Shown here: piece by piece, positions 2,682 through 8,705 of the stretch
How positions within the stretch are numbered: position 1 is the first letter of the stretch
Layout: each line of letters opens with the position of its first letter
Position numbers and translations under genes: made by a program
The notes under the pieces: model-generated
What the model was told of the DNA's origin: nothing
Databases searched by the model: none
The model's input: the letters and a program-made list of their open reading frames with translations, nothing else
Assembly: GCF_014224355.1 (NCBI RefSeq)
Contig: NZ_VNWP01000003.1
Location: 62,001 to 126,000, forward strand
From: Synechococcus sp. BSA11S
GTDB lineage: Bacteria; Cyanobacteriota; Cyanobacteriia; PCC-6307; Cyanobiaceae
DNA length: 64,000 nt
Reading direction: 5' to 3'

Positions 2682-3311
2682 TCACTTCAGGGTCTTGATC
2701 GAGCGCATCCACTCCCGCAGCTGCTCGGAGGCCACCTCCCTGCCGCCCAGGCCGAAGGCCACCGCCACCGCCACAGCGATCGAGCCGAACAGCAGACCGA
2801 AAGCGATCGAGACGATCATGGGCGCCACGCCGATCTGCTGCAGGGCCATGGCACCGGCAAAGGCGATGATCGCCAGCCTGGTGATGGTGGAGAGCAGGGG
2901 GGCGAGCGGGCCCGCCGAAGCGGCGACCACCTGGCTGGCCAGATTGGCCAGGTAGAGCCCGATCGCAAACACCACCAGCCCCGCAAGGATCTGGCTGAAC
3001 ACCAGGAGCATCACCTTGAGCACGTCGGTGAGCGCCGGCAGGGCCAGCACATTCGAGGCGGCGATGCAGGAGAAGAGAAGGATGGCCAGGAAGGCCACCA
3101 CACCCACCAGCTCCGACGGCGAGCGCATTCCATCGCCGGCCTCGGCATTCGCGGCCTTGCCGTACTCGGGCAGGCCGATCCACTGGAACAGACGGTTGAA
3201 GCCCACCCCGGCCAGCACCCGCTCCACCAGACCGGCCACGAAACGGCCCACCACCACGCCCACCACCACGATCAGCAGGGCCGTGAAGATCTGGGGCAGG
3301 CTCACCAGCAC
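2682..3311 (-). CDS. TM-helix channel-like protein, C-terminal part after in-frame TAG
   Basis: 209 codons that continue exactly in frame after the TAG stop at 3312-3314 of the preceding gene. The first codon is GTG (VLVSLPQIF). It encodes several hydrophobic segments with the repeated pattern seen upstream (LPQIFTALLIVVVGVVVGRF resembles LPRLVKALVIAAIGWLIAKT), typical of the conserved TM-helix repeat family related to small mechanosensitive channels, and ends GLGGREVASEQLREWM. Either this is the 3' half of a gene broken by a nonsense mutation, or it is translated by reinitiation at the adjacent GTG. The TAG is one base from CAG (Gln). Confidence 0.7.
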   Translation of the reverse strand: MLVSLPQIFTALLIVVVGVVVGRFVAGLVERVLAGVGFNRLFQWIGLPEYGKAANAEAGDGMRSPSELVGVVAFLAILLFSCIAASNVLALPALTDVLKVMLLVFSQILAGLVVFAIGLYLANLASQVVAASAGPLAPLLSTITRLAIIAFAGAMALQQIGVAPMIVSIAFGLLFGSIAVAVAVAFGLGGREVASEQLREWMRSIKTLK

Positions 3312-4253
3312 CTAGGCAAGCATGGCGGTGGCCGGACCCGACAGCGCCGGAATCGCCAGGGCATCAAGGGCCGCGGTGGCTGTGGGGATCAGCACCAGCA
3401 CGTACACCAGCATTCCGGCGATCCAGGAGAGCCGCTGGCCGCCCTTCTCCGGGTTGAGGCCGAAATCGGCGCCGGCCTTGTCGAGGCCGCTGGCAGCCAC
3501 CAGGTTGGAGACCACGCCCCGCAGGGTCTTGGCGATCAGCCAGCCGATCGCCGCTATCACAAGAGCTTTGACCAGCCGCGGCAAGGCGCCGATCAGATCC
3601 TCGAACAGGCCGACCACCGGGGTGATCTGGGCGCCGAGGTTGAGGGCACCGAGCACCAGCGGCACGAAGAACAGGATGATCAACCAGAACGCCAGATTGG
3701 CGACGGCCTCGCCGATCAGCATCCCTGCCGGGGCGTCGTCCTCCTTGCTGTCGAACAGCTTTTCGTCCAGCTCCAGTTTGGAAGTGGACCCGCGCACGAT
3801 CGATCGTGCCACCGTGGCCAGCACGAAGGCCACGGTGGCCAGGATGGCAGCCGAGAGCAGCTTCGGCAGGTAGGCGAAGATCTGATTGACCAGCTCACTG
3901 AACGGCTGGGACACCGTGCGCAGATCGAGCGTGTCGAGCGCCGCCAGCACAGCCAGCACGATCACCAGCCAGAACACCCCGGTGGAGATCCAGCGGCTCA
4001 GCCGCATTGGCTTGGTGTCTTCGCCCCCGTCCGACAGGGTGCGGGAGAGCCGCTCATCCACCGACAGCCGCCGCAGCACCGAGCGGCAGATCTTGGAGAG
4101 CACTCCGGCCACCAGCCAGCCCAGCAGCAGGATCGCCAGGGCCCCAAGCAGACTGAGAACCATCGGCAGCACTTCAGCGCTGAGAGCCGTGAGGTCGACC
4201 CCGGCAGGTGAAGGCGTGGCGGCGGCGGTGATCGGAACGATGGGATGCATCAA
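3312..4253 (-). CDS. TM-helix channel-like protein, N-terminal part, ends at in-frame TAG
   Basis: 313-residue membrane protein with about five to six hydrophobic helices. It has repeated LPxL/IxxAxLxxxVAxxLA units (FAYLPKLLSAAILATVAFVL; ALPRLVKALVIAAIGWLIAK) as in cyanobacterial TM-helix repeat proteins of the MscS-related group, which are usually about 500 residues. The reading frame stops at TAG (3312-3314) in the middle of a repeat, immediately before another LPQIF repeat in the same frame. Together with the downstream piece it would be about 524 residues, the expected family length. Probably a pseudogene, a sequencing error, or a two-piece protein. The predicted location is the cytoplasmic membrane. 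Confidence 0.75.
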   Translation of the reverse strand: MMHPIVPITAAATPSPAGVDLTALSAEVLPMVLSLLGALAILLLGWLVAGVLSKICRSVLRRLSVDERLSRTLSDGGEDTKPMRLSRWISTGVFWLVIVLAVLAALDTLDLRTVSQPFSELVNQIFAYLPKLLSAAILATVAFVLATVARSIVRGSTSKLELDEKLFDSKEDDAPAGMLIGEAVANLAFWLIILFFVPLVLGALNLGAQITPVVGLFEDLIGALPRLVKALVIAAIGWLIAKTLRGVVSNLVAASGLDKAGADFGLNPEKGGQRLSWIAGMLVYVLVLIPTATAALDALAIPALSGPATAMLA

Positions 4254-4753: not shown

Positions 4754-5248
4754 ATGGTGCCTGAGATCTACCTGTTCGGGCTTTACCCAAGCGACACCGT
4801 CGTCTGGTCCTGGCAGTACCGAAGCCTCGATGGGGAGGTGGATCCCGTCACGGCTGGCGGGCTGCTGCTGAGCGACCCGGACCTTGACGGCGATGGCTGG
4901 TTCGACATCGATGGCATCATCGGCCGGCGCAACGGAGTGAGAATCTCTGGGCTGTTTCCTGCGGGAGAGGGCATTCCGGGAAATGTGAATCCCGACGATG
5001 GCGTTCCCTACACGGGAGACAACCAGGTGCGGCAGGCCGGACTGGCTGACGACCCTCAGCTCACAACCAGTGGCTTGCAGTTTGCCCTCACGGATGGCAG
5101 CTATTCCAATGTGTTCCACGCCTCCTTCCTCTCACCGCCCACTGACCTTGATTTTCATTCAGTGTCGCCATTCCCCGATGGGCCGATCTCGCCCAACAGC
5201 GAGCCCGCGGTGAGTTTCTCCGCCGAGATCATCGCCACTGTGGTGTAG
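4754..5248 (+). CDS. Small acidic protein with DxDxDG motif, N-terminus uncertain
   Basis: 164 residues, rich in Asp, Pro, Ser and Gly, with SDPDLDGDGWFDIDGI, a calcium-binding-loop-like (DxDxDG) motif near residue 42, and no signal peptide or membrane segment from this start. The ATG at 4754 has no Shine-Dalgarno. An ATG at 4711, ten bases after AGGAG, opens another frame (MHRSDYHVPSLDLTDGA) that stops at 4762-4764, inside the first codons of this frame. This suggests a one-base frameshift in an originally longer protein. The 3' end overlaps the antisense amylase tail by 90 bp. Function unknown. Confidence 0.5.
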   Translation: MVPEIYLFGLYPSDTVVWSWQYRSLDGEVDPVTAGGLLLSDPDLDGDGWFDIDGIIGRRNGVRISGLFPAGEGIPGNVNPDDGVPYTGDNQVRQAGLADDPQLTTSGLQFALTDGSYSNVFHASFLSPPTDLDFHSVSPFPDGPISPNSEPAVSFSAEIIATVV

Positions 5249-6763
5249 GGATGTGCTGGATCCGACCGCATACCACATCCTGGCGCTGCGGGCTGGCAGG
5301 TGAAACGTGTAGCTGGGCCCCTTGATTTCAGGAAGCAAGGTGTCCGTGAGCATGTCGCGGTAAGGGTGGTTCCACCTGAACTTGAAACGGGTGTCCACCG
5401 TGATCGAGCGTTGCTCCCCGCATTTGTTGATGGCCACGATCCCGTCCTCCTGGCGACGCCAGAGCAGGGTGCAGGCATCAGCGGCCATGACCTCCATCGG
5501 CTTGCCCTGCATGCGGTTGTGGAAGGCAATCATGCGCCCCATGCGATCGCTGTTCCACACATCGCGCCACCGGCTGTTGTTGGAGCGGCCATCCGACTGA
5601 TCGTCAAAGACCAGGGGGGTCCCACCGTCTCGACCCATGATGTACACATAGGCCAGATCTTCATCGACAGAGGACTCTGCATCCTGATCAAAAATCAGTG
5701 ATCTGAATACTTCATTGTAAGGAATGTCGTGCGTGACCACCACGGTGACGGCACGGCTGTTGGCCAGGGCATCGCCGCTGGAGTATGGGAAAGCGACATC
5801 CGAGAGGGGGCGAGAGAACGAGAAGGCCTGCCTGAGTGCATTGAACAGCGGGAAATCGTAGGCACCAAACTCCGATGGAAGTTCCCGGAGGTACGGCTCC
5901 AGATACTGCTGATAATCGCTTGAGGTGGCCCCACCTGAGGTGATGATCTCCGCAAAGACATGGGAATTTCTGGCCACCTCCTCTGGCACAAATGACCTGA
6001 TGGCACCATTCGGCATATGCTTGGCGGCATCGATACGAAATCCCCGGATGCCAAGGTCGTAGAGAGCCTGAACATACCGCTTGCGCTGGTCCTGCACCCA
6101 GGTCCTGGTGGGATCGGTGTCGATCAGATCGGGCAGGCCTGGATCAGGGTCAGGACCGCAGATACGATCACGTATCACCGAAAAACGGTTGCCGTAGTCC
6201 CGAATACAGGCTCGAGGGTGAAAGTCCTGTGGCCCGAACAGCCCATCGGGGGTGCCATCATCAGGAAGATACCCATTATCAAGGATCCCGTCACCATTGC
6301 TGTCCCCGTAGAGAATCTGCCTGCTCCAGTACGGCTTGTCTTCAGAATAGGCGCGCAGGATCTCCTCACCAGGGAAACTGGTTGCTGCCATCCTCTCGTT
6401 CGCCATGTGATTGACCACCACGTCCGCGTAAGTCTTCACGCCTCGCAAATCGAGTGCCTGAATCGCCTGAACGAGGGACTCCCTGTTGCCATCACAATGA
6501 TCAATCACGCGGAAATCCTGAGGCTGATACCGCAACCACCACTCACAGCTCGTTGTTTTCGGTGATTTCAACGGTGGCGTGACCAGCACCGCCTTGTATC
6601 CCACCGCCGCAATCGCTTCTGCCCGCTCGGCTATGTCTGCGTAGGACCAGTCAAAGGCGTGCAGGATCACATCGGCCCGGCTCTCTGCGGGAAGAGAAAG
6701 CAGCAGGCCTGCGATCGAGAAGGCAAGAGAGGCACGGCGGGCAACAGGAGATCTCCTCGTCAT
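5159..6763 (-). CDS. Exported alpha-amylase family (GH13) protein
   Basis: 534 residues with an N-terminal signal peptide (RRASLAFSIAGLLLSL, cleavage near residue 30). All four GH13 motifs are visible: DVVVNH at 114-119, GFRIDAAKH at 241-249 with the nucleophile Asp245, HVFAEII with the general acid Glu272, and THD at 344-346 with Asp346. A short DSNGDGILD segment near 154-162 could bind calcium. Predicted to hydrolyse alpha-glucans such as glycogen or starch in the periplasm or outside the cell. Recognisable sequence ends near YTFHLPARSARMWYAVG; the last 30 or so residues overlap the converging gene and look like read-through. Confidence 0.88.
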   Translation of the reverse strand: MTRRSPVARRASLAFSIAGLLLSLPAESRADVILHAFDWSYADIAERAEAIAAVGYKAVLVTPPLKSPKTTSCEWWLRYQPQDFRVIDHCDGNRESLVQAIQALDLRGVKTYADVVVNHMANERMAATSFPGEEILRAYSEDKPYWSRQILYGDSNGDGILDNGYLPDDGTPDGLFGPQDFHPRACIRDYGNRFSVIRDRICGPDPDPGLPDLIDTDPTRTWVQDQRKRYVQALYDLGIRGFRIDAAKHMPNGAIRSFVPEEVARNSHVFAEIITSGGATSSDYQQYLEPYLRELPSEFGAYDFPLFNALRQAFSFSRPLSDVAFPYSSGDALANSRAVTVVVTHDIPYNEVFRSLIFDQDAESSVDEDLAYVYIMGRDGGTPLVFDDQSDGRSNNSRWRDVWNSDRMGRMIAFHNRMQGKPMEVMAADACTLLWRRQEDGIVAINKCGEQRSITVDTRFKFRWNHPYRDMLTDTLLPEIKGPSYTFHLPARSARMWYAVGSSTSLHHSGDDLGGETHRGLAVGRDRPIGEWRH

Positions 6764-6872: not shown

Positions 6873-8705
6873 TCATGGCTTCTGAAGAGCCTTGAGTTCA
6901 GGGATGTAGGCAAGCCGGATCTGTTCCTGCTGGAGGCCCTGCACCAGGCGACGCAGCAGCTCCCGCTCTGCCCTCCACTGCTCCATGGTTCGGGTCACGA
7001 GCAGGGCGCTGATGGTGATTCCCAGGGGCGAAACCTGCGTGACACCGCGCAGCAGTGGCGGCTGCATCAGCAGGGACTTCCATTCGGGATCAGCCGAGAA
7101 GTCCATGATCACCCGGTGGGCCACCGCCAGCACCCGCTCAATCGAGGCCGTGTTCGGGGCCACCACCCAGGTGACCTCCACGCCGGAGCGCAGCTTGGTG
7201 TGATTGATCACCCTCTGGAAGGAGCTGTTCGCTGCCACCAGCAGCCTCTGATCGAGACAACGCACGGTGGTGTTGAGCATTCCCACGTCTTCCACCACGC
7301 CCTCATCCCCATCGATCTCCACCCAGTCGCCGATGGCGTAGTGATCCTCCAGGGCCACCACGATGCCGGCCAGGAAATCACGCAGCACGCTCTGAAAGCC
7401 CAGGGCCAGCGCACCCAGCAGAGCGCCCCCCACCAGGAGAACCTCTGCCGAAAAGCTGCGGACCCCGGGAATCCCGAACAGGATCCAGAGGCCCACCAGC
7501 GCCAGACAGAAGCAATTGATCAATCGGTGGCTGCCCTTCAGCAGGCTGCGAAAGCGCTGCTCACGCCGGCACTGTTCTTCGGCTGGAACGGCCAGATTCG
7601 CGGACCACTGGAAGAGCAGAAAGCTGGCAAGGGAACGCAGCACGATCGCCAGCCCACCGATCACGATGACCTTGGCGGCCGCCTCAGCTGGAACCACCAG
7701 CAGTTCGAGGCCCAGGGGGATCTGACCCGGGACGGCCATCACCAAGAGGCTCAGGATCAGCACGAGGCCGATCACGACCAGCACCAGTAGCAGCCGAGAG
7801 AGCCCGAAGTTCACCTGCACGAGCAACAGGCTGGTGGTGCAGGGATTCTCCCGGGCCTGGCGGTGCAGGCGGACTGTGCGACTGCGAACGCGTTGCCAGA
7901 GCCAGATGATCCCTGCTTCCGCCAACACCACGATCAGAATCATCACCGCGGTGAGACCCAGACGGCTGAGCAGGGCCGAGGGGCTCGTGACCGCCCGGGC
8001 ATAGCGCAGCCTGGCCTGAAGCACTGAGCGCCAGGATTCAGCCAGCTCCCAGGGAGTGGTGCCGAAGAACTGGGCATCGGCCTCCGTCACCGTGAGCAGA
8101 GTGAAGGGAGTCCTGCGCCCGGGCAGCAGGGCTTCGATCACCGCCAGGCCAGAGGGCAGGGATCGGGCGCGGAGAACCAGGGAATCCGGCTCGTTCTGCT
8201 TCCAGCCCTTGAGGGAACACAGATCGCTCCTCTCGGCCTTGATCCATCGGCGGATCAGCCCATCGGCCAGGCGTTCGCCAAGGCTGCACACCTGCACGGG
8301 CTGATACAGGAGCATGAGATTTCCCTCGATCACCCGGGCCCGGCGGCGGGCATCGATCGATTCCGATCCAGCACCGACAGTGCGGGAGGTGACCTGAATC
8401 ACCGGCACGCCAAGGATCCTGACCGGTGCCAGCACGAAACTGCCCACATCGATCAGCGTGGCGAAGTCCGACGGAGGGGACGGGCTGGGAGAAACCACCT
8501 GGGGCTCACTGGCCCCAGAGGACACTCCGCTGGGGCGGCCATTGAGACCAGGTGCGGCCAGGGAAGGACCGAACCCGATGCAGGAGCCGACGGCCAGAAG
8601 CAGGCCAAGCAGAAGCGGGATCCATTGCATCATTCCGCGCCTCAAGCGGCTGCGGAGCGGCATGGCAGGGATCCGTCGCGGAGACCGGATGGATTCCGGC
8701 GTCAT
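6873..8705 (-). CDS. MscS-family mechanosensitive channel with N-terminal periplasmic domain
   Basis: 610 residues. The C-terminal third is a clear MscS module: a pore-helix region (GGALLGALALGFQSVLRDFL), then the beta domain (AIGDWVEIDGDEGVVEDVGM, TTVRCLDQRLLVAANSSF). Upstream are a hydrophobic N-terminal segment, a soluble region of about 200 residues that carries Cys residues, and several membrane helices. Its ATG overlaps the DUF362 stop by 4 bp (ATGA), indicating co-translation. Likely role: release of solutes under hypo-osmotic stress, in the cytoplasmic membrane. The long N-terminal domain is typical of larger MscS relatives; its ligand, if any, is unknown. Confidence 0.88.
   Translation of the reverse strand: MTPESIRSPRRIPAMPLRSRLRRGMMQWIPLLLGLLLAVGSCIGFGPSLAAPGLNGRPSGVSSGASEPQVVSPSPSPPSDFATLIDVGSFVLAPVRILGVPVIQVTSRTVGAGSESIDARRRARVIEGNLMLLYQPVQVCSLGERLADGLIRRWIKAERSDLCSLKGWKQNEPDSLVLRARSLPSGLAVIEALLPGRRTPFTLLTVTEADAQFFGTTPWELAESWRSVLQARLRYARAVTSPSALLSRLGLTAVMILIVVLAEAGIIWLWQRVRSRTVRLHRQARENPCTTSLLLVQVNFGLSRLLLVLVVIGLVLILSLLVMAVPGQIPLGLELLVVPAEAAAKVIVIGGLAIVLRSLASFLLFQWSANLAVPAEEQCRREQRFRSLLKGSHRLINCFCLALVGLWILFGIPGVRSFSAEVLLVGGALLGALALGFQSVLRDFLAGIVVALEDHYAIGDWVEIDGDEGVVEDVGMLNTTVRCLDQRLLVAANSSFQRVINHTKLRSGVEVTWVVAPNTASIERVLAVAHRVIMDFSADPEWKSLLMQPPLLRGVTQVSPLGITISALLVTRTMEQWRAERELLRRLVQGLQQEQIRLAYIPELKALQKP

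Follow-up and report, generated by a model that had tools for sequence, protein, structure and literature searches.

The window analysed here, a stretch of 64 kb from the picocyanobacterium Synechococcus sp. BSA11S (genus of Synechococcus WH 5701 and CS-1329), carries near its beginning a membrane channel gene that is interrupted by one in-frame TAG (Table 1). The initial annotation had described two consecutive frames of 313 and 209 codons, lying in the same frame with the TAG alone between them, and had left the strand unnamed. Both frames are present on the minus strand, at 3312-4253 (stop included) and 2682-3311. The count of 313 codons holds if translation starts at a TTG; the adjoining ATG is the likelier start and leaves 312 codons before the TAG. 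Besides codon 313 there is no second stop in the channel frame, and no other lesion was seen in it.

Table 1. Features of the interrupted channel gene and of its surroundings (positions refer to the window).
Feature	Position	Strand	Remarks
msc-type membrane channel gene (NF033912 / PF05552 repeats)	2682-4250	minus	523 codons, both the in-frame TAG and the terminal TGA counted; ATG 4248-4250, TGA 2682-2684; homologues of similar length in relatives
N-terminal open part	3315-4250	minus	312 codons counted from ATG; covers three helix-pair repeats and the opening turns of long helix 4 (PF05552 stretches, predicted helices)
In-frame TAG, codon 313	3312-3314	minus	CAG in CS-1329, SynAce01 and bin.51, the closest relatives found
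GTG directly after TAG	3309-3311	minus	encodes Val in the intact gene; not preceded by a Shine-Dalgarno-like sequence
C-terminal part beyond TAG	2682-3311	minus	209 codons and TGA; conserved; holds the remainder of repeat 4, all of repeat 5 and the Gly/Ala-rich helix at the C-terminus, presumed to be the pore helix
F1 beta subunit of alternate F1F0 ATPase	291-1670	minus	TIGR03305 above cut-off
Frame of 329 codons without Pfam match	1636-2625	plus	next to the F1 beta subunit gene
Alpha-amylase-like gene	5159-6763	minus	534 codons; PF00128, E 5.5e-10, only 81 residues match the profile
MscS beta-domain (PF00924) gene	6873-8705	minus	610 codons; separated from the interrupted gene by about 2.6 kb

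With a coding-composition filter, seven pairs of same-frame neighbours with a single stop between them were detected across the window. The remaining six pairs are separately complete genes of different families and the channel pair alone splits one family, so that a chance arrangement of same-frame neighbours was ruled out. One of the six is the pair of LpxC and FabZ, which is fused in other bacteria (NF009667); in the window each half exceeds the cut-off that its respective single-gene model sets.

Both parts of the channel gene are recognised by the NF033912 model 'mechanosensitive ion channel' (cut-off 100), with 168.1 bits for the first and 139.8 bits for the second part, and by PF05552 (cut-off 22), with 117.6 and 42.2 bits, respectively. 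The best stretch of the first part corresponds to positions 33-176 of the 365 positions of NF033912 and that of the second part to positions 180-365. Because they cover consecutive positions of one model, the frames on the two sides of the TAG are pieces of one gene, and this coverage, together with homologues that read through, rules out two separate genes. The repeated membrane motif that had been noticed in both frames was recovered as passing PF05552 stretches, three in the first part and two in the second. By its sequence, the gene belongs to the MscS-related family "mechanosensitive ion channel, conserved TM helix", where channel activity is given by the name of the family model. It resembles the NF033912 msc subfamily in that both parts pass the cut-off and contain PF05552, and intact homologues are 89-90% identical. 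It differs in that the single uninterrupted frame of the NF033912/PF05552 family, intact in relatives, is broken here by the TAG, and in that the intact protein, with about five repeats, exceeds the model in length.

Classical MscS has the beta-domain PF00924 (MS_channel_2nd) after the pore helix, whereas neither part of the channel gene contains this domain at E <= 0.1; it is present in the neighbouring gene at 6873-8705. A sequence comparison with solved structures gave no match (best E 0.51), and nothing on this gene was found in the open-access literature, searched mostly at the level of titles and abstract openings. CmpX (PA1775) of Pseudomonas aeruginosa is a protein of the PF05552 type. 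An excerpt of PMC10965496 terms CmpX an MscS homologue, and its likeness to the channel gene is one of type and description.

An AlphaFold2 model from 51 aligned sequences (50 relatives out of the 89 described below) reached a pLDDT of 81.8 and a pTM of 0.58. It predicts long helices at residues 20-61, 111-158, 207-254, 301-349 and 405-444, with a shorter helix after each, and C-terminal helices at 477-500 and 503-521. Codon 313 lies 12 residues into the predicted membrane helix 301-349. The top structural rows were four MscS entries (PDB 7onj, 5aji, 6pwn and 2oau) with Z of 8.7-9.8 over 115-133 aligned residues, followed by a row with 6.1, where values below about 13 are not decisive for helical repeats. 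This likeness to MscS has to be seen against the pTM of the model and a Foldseek search with it, which gave no match at E <= 0.001. We presume that the Gly/Ala-rich C-terminal helix is a pore helix as in MscS. Judged from the model, a protein ending at residue 312 would form no channel, and such a truncated protein is probably unstable or inactive.

For the comparison of the stop position we used tblastn (E <= 1e-8), which delivered 115 loci, including two of the window itself. From the other loci came 97 distinct frames, 89 of which, with at least 500 codons, were aligned. Left out were the WH 5701 remnant described below, a C-terminal piece (L047), three frames at contig ends (L052, L097, L113), two frame-shifted ones (L055, L102) and a short member of 241 codons (L023); L115 was retained though a contig end cuts it after query residue 439, and L048, in genome G181, fell below the threshold. 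L055 and L102 are two further cyanobacterial records in which the family gene lies in pieces across frames, owing either to genuine frameshifts or to errors of assembly.

A C to T change from CAG had been suggested as the origin of the stop. In agreement with this, codon 313 is CAG in all three closest relatives found, CS-1329, SynAce01 and the MAG Cyanobacteria bacterium bin.51, and the flanking stretch is otherwise near-identical. The glutamine expected there was also observed in 41 of the 89 aligned homologues; the others have R (16), T (14), D (8), S (3) or one of seven further residues, each once. Neither a stop nor a gap occurs at this position in any of the 89, which are at least 500 residues long, and none of them ends or starts there, contrary to the idea of homologues that naturally end at this point. 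As in a nonsense pseudogene, the premature stop is thus absent from the orthologues.

Homology to the CS-1329 gene is gapless from residue 2 to 523, and dN/dS between the two is 0.17 before the TAG and 0.07 after it. Similar values were obtained among stop-free relatives, with 0.09-0.19 before and 0.085-0.12 after the stop position. Among the four close sequences, the changes private to the window gene amount to 32 synonymous and 5 nonsynonymous ones, 23 before the TAG (19 synonymous, 4 not) and 14 after it (13 and 1). All 57 near-invariant residues (columns at least 97% invariant in the 89 homologues), 27 before the TAG and 30 after it, are kept, which is not unusual by itself, since CS-1329, SynAce01 and bin.51 each depart at only one of 58. 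The relaxed selection and further lesions expected of a nonsense pseudogene were not found in this gene, and therefore it can be at most a very recent one. Until very recently the gene was fully constrained, and the stop is either young or an error. None of this shows that the protein is still produced. For a stop private to one genome, the selection behind a low dN/dS preceded the stop.

The channel locus is the sole match to the protein in the host genome (2.88 Mb, 42 contigs, 99.99% complete). Within the genus, three of nine genomes gave a match, namely the window's own, one intact copy (CS-1329, 90% identity) and one remnant (WH 5701), and six gave none. In the family sample there were matches in 18 of 400 genomes, comprising the own gene, 14 full or near-full copies without internal stop and three pieces (G005, G210 and G181), and none in the other 382. 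The copies of SynAce01 and bin.51, which belong to another genus, show 88-89% identity. The named-genome scan was queried with the C-terminal part only, so that it covers relatives that have this part. In WH 5701 a remnant of 96 codons (residues 259-354, about 76% identity) is kept within an otherwise unrelated frame of 175 codons, with small deletions and altered conserved residues. This remnant (L032:7968-8492) adjoins a gene with a beta-lactamase fold. Of the protein, G210 has residues 342-520 only, and G181 retains a piece around 454-520 that is spread over two frames; these short C-terminal pieces look like remnants as well. Because most genomes of genus and family gave no match and only remnants are left in WH 5701, G210 and G181, the gene looks dispensable in the genus and accessory.

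When the first 9 kb of the window were compared with CS-1329, SynAce01, bin.51 and another relative, DNA similarity was limited to the channel gene, in CS-1329 together with about 100 bases upstream, and the neighbours of the gene differ between these relatives. The synonymous divergence of the channel gene is 0.40 to CS-1329 and 0.44 to both SynAce01 and bin.51; for purD the corresponding values are 0.42, 0.94 and 0.86. Since the channel gene is much closer to the other genus than purD, the single reference gene, this comparison suggests, short of proof, a transfer between the two genera. A virus-borne copy was also considered, and a scan of viral contigs found none. According to excerpts of two studies, 24 MscS types vary in presence and absence between picocyanobacteria (PMC9361551), and sets of mechanosensitive channels are linked with low salinity (PMC9948718).

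Taken as a whole, we regard the TAG as a likely case of a very recent nonsense mutation, CAG to TAG, in an accessory channel gene. Among the readings offered by the initial annotation, a recent pseudogene agrees best with the CAG of the relatives and with one profile spanning the stop. In this reading, the gene formerly encoded a complete MscS-related membrane channel built of repeats and acquired the change at codon 313 very recently; translation would end there, giving a protein of 312 residues with about three helix-pair repeats. The product would lack the latter part of long helix 4, all of repeat 5 and the pore-like C-terminal helix. We infer that the chromosome truly carries the stop, that the shortened protein has no function and that the loss is tolerated, the last in view of the accessory nature of the gene and of the many other MscS-type genes in the genome. 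PF00924 is matched 14 times in the genome, including once by the gene at 6873-8705, and such genes could buffer the loss of the channel.

A lone amber codon is by itself no proof of lost function, and the lack of relaxed selection fits equally a one-base consensus error or a stop that is read through. The main rival is that the gene of the strain is intact and that the TAG is one wrong base in the assembly, which we consider rather unlikely. The TAG is known from one assembly of one genome of the species, a draft in 42 contigs, and a lone substitution in a gene otherwise perfectly conserved, with neither decay nor a second lesion, is what such an error would look like. However, broken frames show no general excess in the genes sampled, as none of the 45 ABC_tran matches above cut-off and none of the 14 MS_channel_2nd matches has an internal stop, and the affected gene is one that close relatives carry only patchily or in decayed form, which a real loss would predict; both arguments weigh little. 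Two further ABC_tran rows fell under the cut-off, one of them with an internal TGA. Improbable, in our view, is a real but leaky stop, with some readthrough to little full-length channel, perhaps as a means of regulation. Purifying selection after the TAG is at least as strong as before it, and an excerpt of PMC7918605 reports bacterial in-frame stops with dN/dS below 1, for which readthrough was proposed. Against this, the TAG occurs in no relative, so that the selection is explained by the history preceding the stop, and such stops tend to persist only briefly according to the same excerpt. Moreover, release factor 1 (prfA) was found above cut-off in the genome, and the 43 tRNA genes detected there, all typed with ARAGORN, include none with the anticodon CTA. 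On these grounds, and within what the two tRNA programs recognise, an alternative code or an amber suppressor was rejected. With no internal stop in the ABC_tran and MS_channel_2nd matches counted above either, there is no sign of a changed genetic code, and the standard code appears to apply.

It is highly improbable that the gene has become a functional split, in which two polypeptides, the second made from the GTG after the TAG or from a later one, assemble into a channel. The cut is near a repeat boundary, with the helix of repeat 4 starting at residue 301, and the two-repeat member of 241 codons in another cyanobacterium (L023) indicates that short proteins of the family are possible. On the other hand, the cut falls inside a long helix and not between helices, no aligned homologue is split at codon 313, and the short C-terminal pieces of G210 and G181 resemble remnants. 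Reinitiation at the next GTG, as had been suggested, does not agree with these homologues nor with the GTG itself, which is simply the codon for valine in the uninterrupted gene (GTT in CS-1329, GTG in SynAce01 and bin.51) and lacks a Shine-Dalgarno-like sequence. Its anti-Shine-Dalgarno pairing is +1.7 kcal/mol, compared with a mean of -3.5 kcal/mol for 500 random sites. The missing Shine-Dalgarno sequence is only weak evidence, because the gene's own ATG also pairs poorly (-1.1 kcal/mol) and some later in-frame GTGs pair moderately better (about -5 to -6 kcal/mol). It is likewise very doubtful that the TAG is both real and used, so that mostly a short three-repeat protein is made beside a little full-length protein or a second, pore-bearing piece, and termination tunes the amount of channel.

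The nonsense mutation that we favour has its counterpart in the bacterial nonsense pseudogenes and in-frame stops with low dN/dS of PMC7918605, which it resembles by a TAG against the CAG of the orthologues and a dN/dS well below 1. That study focused on stops common to two or more species, whereas the TAG described here is private to one genome. The loss of a dispensable gene by a single stop is otherwise ordinary. If the TAG were used, a picocyanobacterium would keep a repeat channel of the MscS type under an in-frame amber stop. If the nonsense mutation is real, the locus would capture the first step of gene loss, in a channel gene that is strongly selected elsewhere, lost or decayed in close relatives and seemingly exchanged between genera, within a lineage whose sets of mechanosensitive channels vary, as the excerpt of PMC9361551 describes.
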